NCBI GenBank assembly: GCA_903813345.2
Contig: CAIIXF020000010.1
Location: 8,177,169 to 8,241,168 of the forward strand
Reading direction: 5' to 3'
Source of the DNA: Owenia fusiformis
Taxonomy: Eukaryota > Annelida > Polychaeta > Sabellida > Oweniidae
DNA: 64,000 bases
Shown: positions 8,141 to 55,400 of the stretch, in pieces
Numbering within the stretch: position 1 is the stretch's first letter
Layout of the letters: each line of letters starts with the position of its first letter
Position numbers and translations under genes: made by a program
The notes under the pieces: generated by a model
The model's database searches: none
Told to the model about the DNA's origin: nothing
Seen by the model: only the letters and a program-made list of their open reading frames with translations

Positions 8141-8842
8141 ATGGTAAAAAACTATATAAAAATATTTCATTTGGTTTTCTCCTAAAAGTAAAGTCATGTT
8201 TGTGAACATTTTTTCTTTTGTTTGAGACATGCGTCACTATACAATGAAAATACTGATTTTGTTTCATTGACTCAAGGTAATGTTTATTCTTACATGAATA
8301 GTCACTTAAAAAGGAAAATACTTTGTTTGGTTAGTGTGTTCTGATCTATTACTGCAGTAATTGAGCATACTTGTTATTTCAGAATTATATATTGATTCTT
8401 AAAAGGAGACACATTTTTAAATTACTCCAAAAATTGCTAAAATAGCCAACTCATTATGTTTGTCAATAGCAAAATATTTTTAGATTAACTCTAATGAAGT
8501 TGAAATTGGTTCATTTGAAATAATTGTTACCATGTTGACTTAAATGGAGAAAAGATTAAAATCTGTTATCCACACTGGGCATTTTTTCGCCAACTTATTG
8601 AACGACCTGTAATATGTTTTACCTTGTGTCATTTCAGTGCAGAAGGCCCTAGAGGGATATATCCTAGATGTACTGGAGAATGGATGAGGATCCTATGAAT
8701 ACAAAGATGAGTGGCTTGTTGTGAGACACTTAACTAATGAACCAAGTCATTATAGGAACACACATACCACCTACCCAAGTCATAACTTAGACTAGCCTCT
8801 GAGGCTTAAGGCATGCTAGGACATGTAAAGACTGAAGCTGTC
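8141..8842. other. No confident gene
   Basis: A pyrimidine-rich tract ending TTTCAG at about 8631-8636 is followed by a short open stretch before the minisatellite. A terminal exon is conceivable, but no upstream exon or protein family supports it. Confidence 0.4.
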
Positions 8843-9345
8843 CTCTCAGATCACTGTGCGAGGACGTGGTCAAGACTTATGCTGCGCTCTCAGATCACTG
8901 TGCTAGGATGTGGTCAAGACTTATGCTGCCCTCTCAGATCACTGTGCTAGGACGTGGTCAAGACTTATGCTGCGCTCTCAGATCACTGTGCTAGGATGTG
9001 GTCAAAACTTATGCTGCCCTCTCAGATCACTGTGCTAGGACGTGGTCAAGACTTATGCTGCCCTCTCAGATCACTGTGCTAGGACGTGGTCAAGACTCAT
9101 GCTGGCCTCTCAGATCACTGTGCTAGGATGTGGTCAAAACTTCTGCTGCCCTCTCAGATCACTTTGCTAGGAAGTGGTCAAGACTTATGCTGCCCTCTCA
9201 GATCACTTTGCTAGGAAGTGGTCAAGACTTATGCTTCCTCTCAGATCACTGTGCTAGGAAGTGGTCAAGACTTATGCTGCGCTTTCAGATCACTGTGCTA
9301 GGACGTGGTCAAGACTTATTCTTCCTCTCATATCACTGGAAGTGG
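8843..9345 (+). repeat. 44-bp minisatellite, about 11-12 copies
   Basis: The unit starts CTCTCAGATCACTGTGCTAG and continues with GACGTGGTCAAGACTTATGC plus TGCC or TGCG. Unit starts at 8843, 8887, 8931, 8975, 9019, 9063 and 9107 are exactly 44 bp apart. Later copies vary by a few bases and the last are truncated. The 75-residue ORF across it is only the repeat read through. Confidence 0.95.
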
Positions 9346-31375: not shown

Positions 31376-31384
31376 CTAAATAGT

Positions 31385-31744
31385 CAAGTAAGATTGGCTC
31401 CCAGGGTCTCAACTCGATATTTGACCTTGACCTTGATCGGTGACAACATTGAAAATGTCGTTATTTTCCGATATTATAATTATAACTGACTATAAATTCA
31501 TAATCAGCGATCCAAAAGATTTGAACTAATATCTTGGTCTCTTCTTGCGTGCTGTTTTGAATTTTATTGTTTAATAAGATCAAAACTTGCAATTCAAATA
31601 TGAAGTGAAAAAAATGGCGAACGTTTTGATTCTGAATTTTGTAATCACAACATGACTACGTGATAATAAGGGCAAGGTCATAAACTTATAACACTATATA
31701 TGGCAATGGTATCGATGTTGCACTATGGGAGCCAATCCTCCTTG
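31385..31744. mobile_element. 360-bp MITE with 9-bp TSD CTAAATAGT
   Basis: The left end is CAAGTAAGATTGGCTCCCA and the inverted right end CAAGGAGGATTGGCTCCCA. CTAAATAGT flanks both sides exactly (31376-31384 and 31745-31753). The family also has the 188-bp member at 37621-37808. A 9-bp duplication suits Mutator-like elements; hAT (8 bp) would need one extra chance match. Confidence 0.85.
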
Positions 31745-31989
31745 CTAAATAGTTAAAGATATTTTCCATTGCCGATATTCGAAGTCTGACCTGCGACACG
31801 AAGAGAAAATTATCAATTAGAAAATATACAATGTAATATCATCTTTAGGTTGTTGATAAAGGATATATTGTGATCAATATGGAACATATCTTACCTCCAG
31901 CATAATATTGCAATTAATTGAAATCGGATAGGACATTATTTGAACGCCATTTTTTACGTCGTTTCACATTTTTTAGTTAAAGTTAAGTA

Positions 31990-32873: not shown

Positions 32874-35800
32874 TCAATAGTCATATCCAGGACAATATAA
32901 AACAAAGACGTGTGGATCTAAGGTCGGCTGAATGTAAGGGAATTCGTAATATGGGTCTTGATCGAGGTTGTCTGCATCCGTTCCAGGATCATCATTCTCA
33001 AATTCCACAGGGTTGTTATTTTCCATTGCATCGTCCGCGTGAACAGTGTTGGCACGAGCCGTTGTGGAAAAACGTCTCCAATTATAAGGACGTCGACTTG
33101 AAAACTCCACTCGTCTGCTTAAGAGAGAGCACGATCCCTGATGTGACCACGAAGCCGTGCAATATTTATTCAAAGACCCAGCTTCTCTTCCATATTTATC
33201 CTGCACATGTTGACACAACTTTAGTCTGTAAAACTGTCCTATAGATACACGAAGTGGACTTTCAACCCAATCCGATGACTCAATTAGTAATTCTTTTGAA
33301 TCGTCCGAGCAGTCCAATATATCCAAGTTATCGTCCCGACATCTTTCAAAACAAGCATATTTCAAGCTTATTTCATGCAGTCTTTGTTTGATACCCAACC
33401 GCAACGCTTTAATGTTCGACAAATCACGTCTAAGAGGCATTCGGTTAAGGCTGTTGTTTAATCCAGTCGCTGTTTCACTGGCTTTGTTACAACTATGAGT
33501 GTCATTATCCAATCTGATATAATATTCCTCATCATCATGAGCTATCGATTCGTTATCATCGACGGAACCAGTGTCATTGTTCATGTCATCTATCTCACTT
33601 TGTATCTCTTTTGGAGCACTGTCAAAGCTTGTGTCACTTTCCCAAGGCTCTGCATCCGATACTGTAACATAATCATCATCATGATGTGGAGTATTGCCTC
33701 CGGTAGCGTCTTTTTCATCAGACGATGCAGGTGCTTGGTCTGACCTATTCTTACTGTTTATATCGTTACATTCAGTAGTCTTGCTTGCTACACAAGGTTC
33801 GCTTAGAAAGGCAACAAGCTCATCAACACCGTCTTCATGATTGATTTGATACGTGGGGCGAATATTAGTGGGATCAGAATCATTTTCATTGAACTTAATG
33901 TGATTCATCTCAGGTTTACACGAAACTTCCAAATCGTCAAATACATTTTTGAAGTGAAGATCATCGATCATCCCCGCTGGAGCTTTAAGATCAGCAGCAC
34001 AGCCGCTACTAAAATTTTCATCAAAAACCTCCTTTCCAGTTTTAATTATTAGGGTTGTTTTTTCATCGTTAGCTCTATGGGTTTGTGAAATGATACTGCT
34101 AGAGTCGATACTCACAACGTTTTTATCACTCTTACTGGGGATGTTAGAGTCTGAACCTAAAGAGTGGTTTACAATTGCGTCATCTTGGTTTTCTTCTCTT
34201 CTAATTCTTCTTATAGCTTCAAGCTCAACAGCATCCTCTTTCTTATCAATTGTAGTCAGCGGTGTCTTGATAAAATCTTCCAGTTGTTCGATAGTGTTAT
34301 TTTTGAATTCCGTAGGATATGTTTGTGGGATTTCAAGTGGCATGCCATCCATTTCGTTACTAACGTCTGATGCAAACATTTCATTGTTTGAGTTTGTCCA
34401 TTCTCCAAGATAAATGTCTATTCCCGTTTTTACGGCCAAACTGATGTCATCCGTTTTCGGTTTCTGTTCGCTTCCGGCAATGCTTTCAGTGTGTGTTTCT
34501 GTGTCGTCATTCATTTCCAATGTATTTTTCGTCTCAGGTAGCTTTATTCCTTGGCTTTCCGAACTGTCCTCTCCTTGACCACGAAAACCATCTGCTTCGG
34601 CGTGTGCAATACTTGAATCGTTTAATTTGTTGAAAATGTCCTTGACGGGGTCAATTCTCAGTTGAGGCTCCCCGGTAGACTTGTTTTCCAACAATGAACT
34701 AAGAATGATAGGATCTATGTGACGGCCCCATGACTCTTTACAACGAGGCTCCGGATCTTCATCAATTGACTGAATGGCAGCATGATTGCCCGTTGTAGTA
34801 CTGTCATCAATAGAATCACATTTGTTACCAAAAATATCGGTAAAAGGACTGCACATCGCTACAGTTGCAATGATAGTAGGCTTGTTGTCAATAGCTAATT
34901 CCATTTCTTCCGATGAAGCATACGTCTTGACATCTTTAGCGTCACCGGCGCAGTTTCCTTGGCGATTAGCCATGTTGCCATCTTGGGTTGAAGAATTACT
35001 AACGATAGAATTCGGGTGTTGATCAATATGATCTGTACATTGATCTGTACAATCATGATTTTCTTTTATAATATTATCATCACAAGAATCACCTTTGTTA
35101 CTTGAAAGATTTTTATTAGGAACACGAGGACTATTTTCAACACCCAATTCCATTACATCGGATGTAGCATACGTCTTGACATTTCCAATGTCATTGGCAC
35201 ATTTTCTTCGGCGATAACCTGTGTCGCTATCGTGGCTTGAAGAACTACGCTCAGTAAGCTCTGTGTGGTGGTCAACTGGACCTGGACAATTAGGATCTGG
35301 ATGACCATCAATGGATTTAGAAGGAGCACGATTGTTTGTTGTAGTGTTGCCATCTATTGACTCACGTTTGTTACCAATAAGATCGGCAATAAACACACCC
35401 GATGTTTCACTTGCATCGATATAAGCACTTGGTCTATTGTCATTAGCTGATTCTATTCCTTTAAAAATAGCCATGTCGCCATTTTGGCTTGGTGAATTAC
35501 CCACGATACGATCTGTGTGTTGGTCAACAGAATCTGTACAAATAGGATCCGGATGATTATCAATTGGTTGAATGGAATCATGAGTGTCCGTTATAGTATT
35601 GTAATCAATAGAATCACATTTGTTACCAGTAAACTCGGTATTATGAGTGGAAGTCGCTTCATGACGTTCAATGAATGTGGACCCATTGTCAATAGCAGAT
35701 TCCATGGCATTGAGTAAAGCAAACGTCTTCTCATCTTCAACATCACCGGCACAGTTTTCTTTGTGATAAGCCTTGTCACTATCTTGGTTTGAAGAACTAG

Positions 35801-36632
35801 GCCTACACTCAATAATATCTGTGTGTTGGTCAACTGGACCTACACAATTAGGATCCGAAAGTTCATCAGTCGCTTGAATTGAATCACGGTTGTCTGTTGT
35901 AGTGTTGTCATCAATTGACTCATGTTTGTTACCAGTAAGATCGGTGATAAGTATACATGGTATTTTACTCTCATCAATATCAACACTAGATATACTGTCA
36001 ATAGCGAATTCGGTTTCATCCGAAAGGGCACATGTCTTCTCAACTCTCACGTCATTGGTGCAATTTCTTTGGCGATTAGCCGTGTCGCCATCTTGACTTG
36101 AAGAACTTCTTACAGTAGGATATGTGTATTGGTCAATGGGATCTGTACAATGAGGATACGGAAGAATATCAGTTGATTGAATGGAATCATGAGTGTCCTT
36201 AATAGCAATGTCATTAATAGAATCACATTTGTTACCAGTAGAATCGGTATTCATGGTATTAAGATTACGCGTCGTTTCACTTGCATCAACACGAGGACTA
36301 TTGTCAACCGCCGATTCAATTACTATAACATCTTGTACGGTCTTGTCTCTTCTGTCATTAATCCCGTCTTCTTGGCGATTGGTACTTGTATCATTACACG
36401 AAATGTCGAAATCGCAAACAGCTTTACACTCTGGAGCAATAACTGAACTGTGACGACCTTTTCCAGAATGTCCGGATATTTCTAAAGGATCCTCGTCATA
36501 ATCATCACCTCTCTTCGAACTTGAACTGACGACTTCCCTCGATATATATTCAATTGTCTCGCACCATGTAACATGACGTTCGCAAGCTCTGTGCAACAGA
36601 GAACCAGTTTCTTCATCATTGTATGTTGTCAT
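32874..36632 (-). CDS. 1252-residue acidic repeat protein, unknown family
   Basis: A single uninterrupted ORF, far longer than chance allows at this composition, from ATG at 36632 to TGA at 32874. Residues 1-75 are unique (SLLHRACERH near the start recalls an ankyrin-helix fragment, but there is no repeat). Residues about 97-655 hold six diverged repeats of 83-103 residues starting near 97, 199, 302, 392, 486 and 569. The signature is KTxAxSxxMExAIDN, GNKCDSIDDNTTT, DSIQSID, DPxC, VDQHTD, SSSQDGDxANR and NCAxDV. Residues 660-1050 are acidic and probably disordered. The C-terminal ~180 residues are less biased, with basic and hydrophobic stretches. No signal peptide or membrane segment is visible. 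Intronless structure suggests a retrocopy origin or a single large coding exon. No function can be assigned. Confidence 0.85.
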   Translation of the reverse strand: MTTYNDEETGSLLHRACERHVTWCETIEYISREVVSSSSKRGDDYDEDPLEISGHSGKGRHSSVIAPECKAVCDFDISCNDTSTNRQEDGINDRRDKTVQDVIVIESAVDNSPRVDASETTRNLNTMNTDSTGNKCDSINDIAIKDTHDSIQSTDILPYPHCTDPIDQYTYPTVRSSSSQDGDTANRQRNCTNDVRVEKTCALSDETEFAIDSISSVDIDESKIPCILITDLTGNKHESIDDNTTTDNRDSIQATDELSDPNCVGPVDQHTDIIECRPSSSNQDSDKAYHKENCAGDVEDEKTFALLNAMESAIDNGSTFIERHEATSTHNTEFTGNKCDSIDYNTITDTHDSIQPIDNHPDPICTDSVDQHTDRIVGNSPSQNGDMAIFKGIESANDNRPSAYIDASETSGVFIADLIGNKRESIDGNTTTNNRAPSKSIDGHPDPNCPGPVDHHTELTERSSSSHDSDTGYRRRKCANDIGNVKTYATSDVMELGVENSPRVPNKNLSSNKGDSCDDNIIKENHDCTDQCTDHIDQHPNSIVSNSSTQDGNMANRQGNCAGDAKDVKTYASSEEMELAIDNKPTIIATVAMCSPFTDIFGNKCDSIDDSTTTGNHAAIQSIDEDPEPRCKESWGRHIDPIILSSLLENKSTGEPQLRIDPVKDIFNKLNDSSIAHAEADGFRGQGEDSSESQGIKLPETKNTLEMNDDTETHTESIAGSEQKPKTDDISLAVKTGIDIYLGEWTNSNNEMFASDVSNEMDGMPLEIPQTYPTEFKNNTIEQLEDFIKTPLTTIDKKEDAVELEAIRRIRREENQDDAIVNHSLGSDSNIPSKSDKNVVSIDSSSIISQTHRANDEKTTLIIKTGKEVFDENFSSGCAADLKAPAGMIDDLHFKNVFDDLEVSCKPEMNHIKFNENDSDPTNIRPTYQINHEDGVDELVAFLSEPCVASKTTECNDINSKNRSDQAPASSDEKDATGGNTPHHDDDYVTVSDAEPWESDTSFDSAPKEIQSEIDDMNNDTGSVDDNESIAHDDEEYYIRLDNDTHSCNKASETATGLNNSLNRMPLRRDLSNIKALRLGIKQRLHEISLKYACFERCRDDNLDILDCSDDSKELLIESSDWVESPLRVSIGQFYRLKLCQHVQDKYGREAGSLNKYCTASWSHQGSCSLLSRRVEFSSRRPYNWRRFSTTARANTVHADDAMENNNPVEFENDDPGTDADNLDQDPYYEFPYIQPTLDPHVFVLYCPGYDY

Positions 36633-36647
36633 CTTGTCTTCATACTA

Positions 36648-36864
36648 GGGAAGTTAAGCTACACGTTTTTAAAAGAATTTGTACGCGAACGTGTAATATT
36701 TTGACCCACATGGATTACTGTTCTCCTATTTACAATTGTTTTCCTTATACCTTTATACTCAATCGGGCAAACAATTACTAGAAAAGGGAGAACTAACCCT
36801 AGAGAACCATAATTCTATACGTTCACGTACAAGTTCTATTAAAAACGGGTAGCTTGACCTCCCC
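36648..36864. mobile_element. Foldback MITE abutting the start of the repeat-protein gene
   Basis: Left arm AAGTTAAGCTACACGTTTTT ... ACGCGAACGTGTA pairs with right arm TATACGTTCACGTACAAGTT ... AAAACGGGTAGCTTGACCT. The left edge is about 15 bp from the ATG of the 1252-residue ORF. A related single arm lies at 48971-49076. The target duplication is ambiguous. Confidence 0.8.
36751..36757 (-). promoter_or_regulatory. Candidate TATA box inside the MITE
   Basis: Minus-strand GAGTATAAAGGTAT lies about 120 bp upstream of the ATG of the 1252-residue ORF. The related repeat at 49065-49076 keeps the same word (GAGTATATAAAGG), so the motif belongs to the transposon family. Promoter use is inferred from position only. 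Confidence 0.35.
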
Positions 36865-37611: not shown

Positions 37612-37620
37612 AGCTACACG

Positions 37621-37808
37621 CAAGGAGGATTGGCTCCCAGAATGCAACACCGATATTCTGCAAAACAATCACCTAGCGATAGCTTTGTTGGAGAGTATCG
37701 GGTCATTCTCCATGCAGTCGTACAAATTATACAGACACGAATAGCAAATGACGCATGCGTGGAGATTAAAGAATATCGAGTTGGAACCCTGGCTTCCAAT
37801 CCTCCTTG
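37621..37808. mobile_element. 188-bp MITE with 9-bp TSD AGCTACACG
   Basis: The left end is CAAGGAGGATTGGCTCCCA and the inverted right end begins CAAGGAGGATTGGAAGCCA. AGCTACACG flanks both sides exactly (37612-37620 and 37809-37817). It is the same family as 31385-31744 but with a different interior. Confidence 0.9.
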
Positions 37809-38317
37809 AGCTACACGGGAACAGCTATTCATAACAATGTACTTTCATTTTATTTCAGTATTTTCATATGAAAGGTGCAACAATTAATGAGTGCGGCCAT
37901 TCAACGATCATGGACCAGTGTCAAAATATATTTAAGTTTTGTTATTTCTTCAAGACTTACATATATTTCTATTATTTCCAAAGAAATCACCTTGGATGAA
38001 CATTATCCTCATGAAACATGGTGAATCTTAAAAATCTATTAGTGGAACTCCCTCTATAGAAGCTTTGAACTGAATTTTCACTCCTTAATGCTGTAATTGA
38101 TAGTTTATCCATACATTTTCAGAAAATAGATATGTCAAAAAGATGTTAGATTTAAAAGATGTTATATTTACACTCAAACTATTCCAATAAATCAAAACAT
38201 AACATTGGTAAAACATGATTACATCTTTTGCTACTGTATTACAAGTCCATGTTTTTACAGGTCCCATATTCTGTGAAATACTATAATGTATGTCCTTGTT
38301 GAACTTATTGAAGTAAA

Positions 38318-39451
38318 TTAGTATCCATATTGTTGAAGAGGTTGGGTTCGAACGTTAACTGGCTGTGTCCCAATGTCATAATCTGTTGGGTTTATAGGAG
38401 CAAGTTTCAATGCCCGACATATGGCATTGCACTTGTGGTTGAGGAAGAAGCCAGCGATTCCAACTGGGCCCCAGTCGGCTCTACCGTCGCCCTCTCCATG
38501 CATCGTAAATATCTGAAGTAAACAAGAGTACTTGATAGACGAACAGGGAGTCACAGGATCACGGCATTATTTTCGTAGTTAAAAAAGCAAGTATCAGTTA
38601 TGTATGATGTCAAAAGTTTTATCGTTGTATAAAATAAATTAGATTTTACCTGTGGGTCGGTGTAGACATCCCCCACACCCTGTATATCAACGACCATCTC
38701 GCGTCTCCCGGAATCTTCAAACGTGAAATGTGTGAACGCTTGTGGGGTGTTCCTGGGGGTAATAGCATAACCATTACGAAGAGGATCTGCATTATTGTGT
38801 TTAAAATAGTTACCCTCCAAGAACCTTTCTAAAGTACCAAACTGACCCTCGAAATCACCGTACAGGAACTCCACCATTTGGCTTTCCACATAGGTCACCT
38901 AGAAATTTAGAAATTCACAACAGTGTTACTCATTCAATTAAAGTAATGAAGGGTATTGAAGATAAACATCGTACACCGAATGCCTCAATCACGGTAAAGT
39001 GTTCGATAGAGTTATTTACAAATGAAGTTTACAATTAGGTCTAACATGGGCGCCAAAGAGAGAATTAACAACACTTGACTAGTCGTATATATACTATCTC
39101 GTTTCAAAATTAGAAAATGACCATGACCCTCACCTGTTTTGGGACTGCATTATTGTTGTTGTATTTGATTGCATAATTGATGCACTTAGATTGCGTCAAA
39201 ACATCATACTGCGCGTTCTCCATGGTCCTACCTCCATTTTCTATTTCCACTTTCAGTACCATCGGGTTTTCCGCCCAATCACCCGAGTTTACGTGCCAGG
39301 CCCTATAGGCAAGACGCATCCCTCCATGTGTGAAAAATGTATTTTCACGATAAATCAAACTCAGTTCGGATGTCCATGTTTTTGTGATACGACAATGTGT
39401 CCATACTTTAACATTTTCAAGGATATGTCCTGGTCCATCAGTGCTGGACAT
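38318..39451 (-). CDS. Alpha-kinase family protein (atypical Ser/Thr kinase), three exons
   Basis: Exons on the minus strand: 39451-39134, 38898-38650, 38512-38318. All introns are phase 0 with GT/AG ends, giving 253 residues. An in-frame TAG sits two codons before the ATG, supporting this start. The protein is little more than an alpha-kinase domain. It has the N-lobe with FFTHGGMRLAYRA and the ATP-site lysine in PMVLKVEI. Next come YVESQMVEFLYGDF, GNYFKHNN and RNTPQAFTHFTFEDSGRRE. MVVDIQGVGDVYTDPQ is the catalytic/metal motif of eEF2K-like kinases. The glycine-rich GEGDGRADWGPVGI and the zinc-site LNHKCNAIC complete it. All key residues are present, so it is probably active. No calmodulin-binding, SEL1, vWA or channel domain is attached; its substrate is unknown. 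Confidence 0.92.
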
Positions 39452-40282
39452 CGTCTTCTATTCCTCGTTTCCTTTTACTTTCAACTCTAAAACTGTGTAG
39501 AAAAATACCGAAACATTTCAATTAGAAATGAGTCAGTGGGAATCCCATATTCCCTCACGTCACTCCGATTTTTAGTTTCGCCGAATTGGCAAAGTGCCAT
39601 CGACTGCGCATAATCATGTATTCCACTTAATAGAGGGATTTATCCCTGGGGATTTATTGTGAAATAATAGTTCATTCATTGAAAGAAGCGTTAAACTTTA
39701 CACCCCTCGAAATGCATGGGGGAGGGGGAAAGCAATAATATGAGAACACCATGATTCTGAATTATGTTCATACAGCAGTTTTAGAATGTCATTTTCATGG
39801 TACATTTACAGGATGATAACATAATTTCTAATTGATTTTCATTGGTAAGCTTTGCTTGCATGCTATATGCGCAGGGTAAGTGTATTGAAATCTATAAATA
39901 AGATGAATAAGATGAATAAAATGTAATCATTCTATCCAGGTATCAGCAGAACTTATTTCCCAACTGTTTAATTGCCTTAACTAAGTATTGCAATTGGGGT
40001 AATGAGTAAGCAAAAATCGTTTTGAAACTCATACATGATTCAACTACATGTACATTCACTGGCGGATCCAGAAGATATCAAGCGGGGAGGGGGGTGGGCA
40101 TATTTCAAATCCGAAACAAATCCGCGCAGCACGGAATTTCTTTTTGAAAATGTAAGGCTAATTTTTCTATAATTTGGCCTAAAAGGGTATATAAGGCCAA
40201 GTTATACCAAAAAGGCCCACTTATTGAGGCCCTACCAAAATTTTGTTGGGCCCAATTTTTTCTGGGGGGGGGGGGGCATGGG
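39452..40282. other. 5' flank of the alpha-kinase gene, no gene seen
   Basis: No further exon could be recognised. A run of G and the repeat segment starting at 40283 close the interval. Confidence 0.4.
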
Positions 40283-54599: not shown

Positions 54600-54960
54600 T
54601 TGAATCAGTCCAAGGCATCTTCTCTGTATCACACGTACATGTATCTACGTGTATCTTATATGGATCTCAATCCAACAAAGTAAAGTCTTCTATTAATCAG
54701 CTCAAAGCATCTAACCTATATCACGCTTGTATCTATCTTGTATGGACAAAATGTGTTCCAGAGTTCACTTAGGCTTGTGTCCATATCCTACTATGGGTTG
54801 TATTTCTTGTATCTGTCTTATATGGATCTCAATCCAACCAGTCCAAAGCATCTTATTTATATCACACTTGTATCTATCTTATAAGGACAACTTGTGTTCC
54901 AGTGTTCATTTAGGCGTGTGTCCATACCCTACTGGGTTGTATTTCCTGAAATTACACAGA
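54600..54960 (+). repeat. ~140-bp imperfect tandem repeat
   Basis: Copies share TTATATGGATCTCAATCCAA, GTCCAAAGCATCT, CTTGTATCTATCTT, AGGACA and TAGGCGTGTGTCCATA-like words. The plus-strand 190-residue ORF starting at 54727 is a read-through of this and the next array. Confidence 0.7.
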
Positions 54961-55089
54961 ACTAGCATTAAAAACATGCAAATATCGCATTGTCGCTCCA
55001 AGCGACTAACCCCTTTTGAGGTTGCTAAATTGTACCTGCATTCGACGCATTATATGAATCCGTCAACCCACGATACAAATAGACTTTTA

Positions 55090-55400
55090 CGTCAGAGTTC
55101 GAACTGTACTGCATCAGAACAACTGCTCGACGTAATGGCTACAATGCCAAACATGATAACAATTTTTACGTCGGAGTTCCAACTGTACTACAACAGAACA
55201 ACTATTCGACGCACTGGAAATAATGCCAAACATGACAACAATATTTACGTCGGAGTTCCAACTGTACTTCAACAGAACAACTATTCGACGTTCTGGTAAT
55301 TATGCCAAACATGATAACAATTTTTATGTCGGAGTGCCAACTGTGCTTTAACAGAACAACTACTCGACGTAATGGCCATAATGCCAAACATGTTCAATAT
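55090..55400 (+). repeat. 79-bp tandem repeat, about four copies
   Basis: TCGACG words at 55128, 55207, 55286 and 55365 are exactly 79 bp apart. Each unit has AATGCCAAACATGAYAACAA, TACGTCGGAGTTCCAACTGT and ACAGAACAACTATTCGACG. A decayed copy pair continues at 55500-55600. Confidence 0.92.

Follow-up and report, generated by a model that had tools for sequence, protein, structure and literature searches.

Animal genomes commonly encode long acidic disordered repeat proteins. The members of the PPP1R15 family (GADD34/CReP) are acidic, carry repeats and an RVxF-like motif near the C-terminus, and have uORFs, and ALMS1 is a large protein with degenerate tandem repeats. The open reading frame (ORF) described here was found on the minus strand of a 64-kb stretch of DNA (the window). 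It shared acidity, repeats, an RVxF-like motif near the C-terminus and possible uORFs with PPP1R15, and large size with degenerate tandem repeats with ALMS1. A third likeness concerned the mode of evolution. Disordered regions can retain their bulk features while their sequence is not conserved, as Singleton and Eisen (2024, PMC11075841) describe for orthologous regions of Drosophila, where sequence diverges fast and distributed features such as composition are constrained. Their study compares orthologous regions across Drosophila species, whereas the comparison made here was between repeats inside one gene.

The open reading frame and its coding signals

The minus strand of positions 32874-36632 contained an uninterrupted ORF of 1252 codons plus the stop, as the earlier note had described except for the strand, which it did not give. 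The open frame extended upstream to 36644, and the plus-strand translation of 32874-36632 was filled with stops throughout. The description of the ORF as the longest by far was also correct, as the only other ATG ORF of at least 150 aa in the window had 185 aa, and the longest open frame in 100 simulated Markov sequences (64 kb each, with the local dinucleotide content) had a mean of 166 codons and a maximum of 261. Since 1252 codons were far beyond this chance maximum, the ORF was considered real.

The frame was open for about 600 codons beyond the repeats. Within repeat units 1-5, no nonsense changes were seen, compared with a mean of 12.8 (minimum 3, 2000 runs) under a neutral simulation that was based on the five units and their 288 nucleotide differences in total from their consensus. 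All 13 gap runs among these units, located at five internal sites and at the unit edges, had lengths divisible by three in both nucleotide alignments made with MAFFT. The units had, however, been cut in frame, so that the total length of each unit was necessarily divisible by three, and the few single-base gaps, compensating one another, that blastn placed in its alignments of the repeats counted against the in-frame-indel evidence. The codon-position GC asymmetry of the repeats was equalled by none of 2572 window segments, and that of the non-repeat middle (aa 697-1000) by none of 2623. The periodicity was weaker at the ends, where 89 of 2601 segments were as periodic as the C-terminal part and 28 of 2614 as the N-terminal part.

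The synonymous codon usage counted against coding. The mean score of the ORF was -0.009 per codon, which was lower than the score of any of the 27 training genes (-0.007 to 0.053) and fell within the window background (median -0.020, 95% -0.004, maximum 0.010), and other frames across the ORF stretch exceeded it, with antisense frame 0 the highest at 0.052. The training set consisted of 27 of the 28 loci L004-L031 (L031 was dropped because its longest ORF was under 900 nt, and L032-L040 were left out), and the test had some power because 19 of the 27 genes scored above the background maximum of 0.010. A gene that is atypical or has low expression could fail such a test, given that the third-position GC was 0.424 in the training set, which was made up of receptors and HSP70, and 0.318 in the ORF; the result still counts against coding. 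Overall, the signals read from the sequence supported a genuine, fast-evolving protein-coding gene. The earlier proposal of a real, fast-evolving protein was supported by the frame kept through the diverged repeats and by the periodicity in the non-repeat middle, but not by the codon-usage test.

Repeat units and proposed selection on frame and composition

The predicted protein had a mass of 139 kDa, a pI of 4.44 and a K+R minus D+E of -128, which agreed with its earlier description as acidic, and the C-terminus was indeed of a different composition, with a basic island (Table 1). The best 19-residue Kyte-Doolittle mean was 0.98; therefore, a membrane span was unlikely. The six repeat units of 83-103 residues proposed previously were close to those found, which were five full units of 85-102 aa and a sixth that was only partial.

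Table 1. Features of the ORF and its flanks, in window positions.
Feature	Position	Strand	Remark
TATAAA	36752..36757	-	~120 bases upstream of main ATG; weak: 121 TATAAA on the window's two strands
Possible uORF 1	36640..36711	-	23 codons + stop; stop overlaps next ATG
In-frame TAG directly upstream of open frame	36645..36647	-	also candidate splice acceptor; equally pyrimidine-rich: 13% of the strand's 1487 YAG sites
Possible uORF 2	36629..36643	-	4 codons + stop; stop overlaps main ATG
N-terminal part	36240..36632	-	aa 1-131; without Pfam match
Repeat unit 1	35937..36239	-	aa 132-232 (101 aa)
Repeat unit 2	35631..35936	-	aa 233-334 (102 aa)
Repeat unit 3	35376..35630	-	aa 335-419 (85 aa)
Repeat unit 4	35103..35375	-	aa 420-510 (91 aa)
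Repeat unit 5	34830..35102	-	aa 511-601 (91 aa)
Partial repeat unit 6	34710..34829	-	aa 602-641 (~40 aa)
Acidic non-repeat middle	33633..34709	-	aa 642-1000
Basic island	33048..33452	-	aa 1061-1195, pI 9.4
RRVEF	33102..33116	-	aa 1173-1177; resembles protein phosphatase 1 docking motif; strict RVxF in 8/1000 protein shuffles
Nearest AATAAA	32452..32457	-	417 bases past the last base of the stop codon

The repeats were roughly 65-78% identical in DNA and contained no stops, and only N3, K4, S7, and C31 were invariant across the six aligned units. Among the repeat motifs quoted before, VDQHTD and NCAGD were literally present, whereas GNKCDSIDDNTTT was a consensus from which the units varied (GNKHESIDDNTTT, GNKCDSIDDSTTT etc.). 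Unit 2 clustered with unit 4 in both trees shown, and unit 1 was nearest to unit 3 (50%), as expected if pairs of units had been duplicated. An older second duplication in the middle part was not significant, as 194 of 500 shuffles were equally good.

The signatures of the repeats had been regarded as those of purifying selection, which our analysis did not confirm. The ML omega between the repeats was 1.05, 1.01, 0.99, 0.85, 0.97, and 1.15 under six codon models, and omega=1 was retained in all four models tested (2dlnL about 0.5, 0.9, 0.7, and 2.7) and likewise in either half of the repeat unit (three models, 2dlnL ≤0.36). The NG86 ratios between units ranged from 0.50 to 1.29 over 15 pairs, 5 of which involved unit 6 taken at 95 residues, with only ~40 of them repeat. 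Because omega was 0.85-1.15 and omega=1 was unrejected, the amino-acid identity of the repeats was considered to be without measurable constraint. A dN/dS near 1 had been named in the earlier note as evidence against a real protein, and the ratio between the repeats was near 1; however, we regard this standard as too strict given the evidence from frame and composition. The repeats contained 92 hydrophobic residues, compared with 114.7 (sd 7.2) expected from a consensus-based simulation, in which 1 of 2000 runs was as low and D+E was not unusual (272 of 2000 as high). When the simulation started from the extant units, a hydrophobic count as low was reached in at most 1 of 300 runs in each of six settings and no run reached the observed D+E; the mutation model of the composition simulations was simple and the 20 pooled pairs were non-independent, most of which was avoided in the two-unit-pair setting. 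The composition of the repeats, in the sense of low hydrophobicity, appears to be constrained though their sequence is not.

The omega of about 1 in the repeats and the codon usage unlike that of the training genes would both be accounted for if the ORF were untranslated, its open frame having arisen by chance or being in decay within a degenerate minisatellite. This explanation was judged very improbable, as the frame continued for ~600 codons outside the repeats, the longest simulated open frame had 261 codons, none of the ~13 nonsense changes expected was seen, and the indels in the repeats were in frame. In our view, an omega near 1 that is accompanied by a lack of nonsense changes, by indels that keep the frame and by a shortage of hydrophobic residues agrees with a coding region that is disordered rather than with non-coding DNA.

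Gene boundaries and neighbouring sequences

The term intronless, which had been applied to this gene, was valid for the ORF itself, but an upstream intron is possible, with a plausible acceptor at the in-frame TAG. The ORF may then form the last, large exon at the 3' end of a gene that is spliced, with TAG 36647-36645 as the acceptor and leader or coding exons further upstream. The open frame began exactly at this YAG, the preceding 18 bases were 67% pyrimidines, and most of the conserved genes here, such as those matching the kinase and HSP70, were split into exons. Upstream on this strand, however, the closest gene encoded an alpha-kinase (PF02816), whose minus-strand exons (one ending at 39134, then 38898-38650 and 38512-38318) terminated in their own TAA at 38320-38318. 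Five alpha-kinase matches were found genome-wide, the others being on contigs C2 and C9, and the open frame of the C2 paralogue also stopped, 33 bases after the domain. The ORF was therefore rejected as the tail of the alpha-kinase, although a rare alternative splice ahead of the kinase stop could still join the two. The main ATG at 36632 had A at -3, and no upstream coding exons were recognised, though exons of an unfamiliar kind would escape notice. We consider the spliced structure unlikely, yet serious enough to be kept in mind: the protein could then exceed 1252 residues, and no meaning would attach to the ATG, the TATAAA or the uORFs. With the ORF starting at its own ATG, the TATAAA, the uORFs and the context of the main ATG were considered candidate features of the gene.

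Inverted repeats of 36 and 38 nt were located on either side of the ORF, which could suggest that a DNA transposon, with the inverted repeats at 31384-31745 and 37620-37809 as its boundaries, carried the ORF as cargo or as its coding part. The flanking pieces, however, were copies of two separate repeat families. The left piece had 73-90% identity to its copies listed elsewhere, and the right piece 98-100% identity to the 39 other full-length copies listed for it; with such identities, the two differ in age and insert on their own. The ORF itself had no second copy at E≤0.001 in the 498-Mb genome (525 contigs). The transposon reading was rejected as hardly credible.

Search for relatives, probable disorder and a proposed role

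The absence of a recognised family reported before was confirmed by profile searches, which were empty above cut-off. The whole protein had no Pfam matches at E≤5 and no NCBIfam matches at E≤1, and the sole Pfam match among four separate pieces was a sub-threshold ALMS_repeat (E 0.27). This match covered 19 residues and scored 11.6 bits against a cut-off of 30, short of membership in the ALMS1-type repeat (PF18727), and the repeat unit of the ORF was about twice the length of the 47-position model. PDB matches to SENP7 (aa 170-250; E 0.049 and 0.055) and RNA polymerase beta (E 0.42) were treated as chance, as was a match to the C-terminus on contig C3 with E 3.24, 26% identity and two stops. 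Six short peptide patterns, which detect close relatives only, revealed no relative among the IMG/VR viral contigs and gave 9 matches in a prokaryote genome collection, none of which was confirmed; a bacterial or viral origin was rejected on these searches. The data searched for relatives thus comprised Pfam, NCBIfam, the PDB, viral contigs and prokaryote genomes. The literature search found nothing on this gene. The genome contained introns as well as numerous seven-transmembrane receptors (152 matches from 147 scored candidates), and the host is therefore an animal. Nearly all the matches listed in the genome were on contigs C1-C12.

A known family diverged beyond recognition, such as a centrosomal or ciliary repeat protein or a phosphatase-1 targeting subunit, was weighed as a further explanation. 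The RRVEF motif and the sub-threshold ALMS_repeat match favoured it, and the combination of acidity, repeats and possible uORFs is reminiscent of GADD34/PPP1R15. The ALMS match, however, was far under its cut-off, RRVEF came from one of 12 patterns tried, and PF10488, the PP1-binding region that is the signature of PPP1R15, was absent from the ORF (E≤5 for the whole protein, E≤10 for the pieces), while its only match listed genome-wide was on contig C6 (E 5e-10). PPP1R15 itself was rejected on this ground, and a diverged family in general seemed distinctly unlikely. In the motif survey, the strict RVxF was alone among the 12 patterns in being rarer than 0.05 in shuffles. We take RRVEF to be like an RVxF-type protein phosphatase 1 docking motif, but so short a match read from sequence would not be sufficient for PPP1R15 membership.

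Of 20 segments of 60 aa, 16 had charge-hydropathy values that fell on the side of disorder, and the values were negative in all four parts of the protein. Neither the repeat unit (mean pLDDT 47.0, 6 sequences) nor the C-terminus (mean pLDDT 34.9, 1 sequence) received a confident fold from AlphaFold; with so few sequences, such low pLDDT values are compatible with disorder and are weak evidence for it. The explanation of the whole that we lean slightly towards is a minus-strand gene for a strongly acidic, mostly disordered protein. Selection would target the frame and the hydrophilic, acidic composition rather than the exact sequence, and the repeat half, which would tolerate many different hydrophilic sequences, may act as a charged, flexible spacer or a crowding chain that would grow and shrink by unequal exchange with its length shifting in whole codons. 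More tentatively, the basic C-terminal island (~aa 1061-1195) might be a partner-binding part, the partner possibly being protein phosphatase 1, bound through RRVEF, or else nucleic acid or membranes, bound through charge. A bolder version would be a lineage-restricted signalling scaffold, in which a long acidic chain selected only for frame, length and composition tethers PP1 via RRVEF in the basic island, and the output is tuned by repeat number and the two chained uORFs; this was regarded as a highly speculative long shot.

Because long acidic disordered repeat proteins are common in animal genomes, this gene has modest interest in itself. It seems to be of an ordinary kind and provides a neat internal demonstration of frame and composition being kept during sequence drift. 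Repeats within one gene make it possible to test internally which properties of a disordered protein are visible to selection, and here the frame and low hydrophobicity were kept while replacements ran at about the neutral rate. The case illustrates that a dN/dS near 1 alone should not lead to such ORFs being discarded.

The alpha-kinase gene and codon usage in the main ORF

The gene upstream of the main ORF was identified by its match to PF02816, for which the middle exon gave an E-value of 3.3e-19, and it carried its own TAA immediately past the domain. The remaining alpha-kinase matches in the genome were located on contigs C2 and C9. At the third codon positions of the repeats of the main ORF (34710-36239, minus strand), T accounted for 51% and G for just 10%, compared with ~31% and ~19%, respectively, in the flanks.

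Features mapped in the window
Feature	Position	Strand
Inverted-repeat copy, ~360 bp (older family)	31384-31745	
Inverted-repeat element copy, ~190 bp	37620-37809	
Alpha-kinase gene (PF02816)	38318-39457	minus
Alpha-kinase exon pieces	one with end at 39134; 38898-38650; 38512-38318	minus
Second ATG ORF, 185 aa	54742-55299	plus
Array of 79-bp unit, 3.9 copies	55085-55392	

Tandem repeats and the second ATG ORF

Because the 185-aa ORF extended into the 79-bp-unit array (joint region 54742-55392), its sequence may be a tandem-repeat read-through. Elsewhere, a 44-bp unit was repeated 12 times in a minisatellite at 8814-9338, with 91% matches.

Inverted-repeat elements on either side of the main ORF

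The two elements shared end sequences. Copies listed for the older ~360-bp family were 73-90% identical to the one at 31384-31745 (40 of 1836 first-look candidates scored). For the 190-bp element, 40 of 990 first-look candidates were scored, and the 39 other full-length copies listed showed 98-100% identity; this near-identity suggests that the element was amplified recently.
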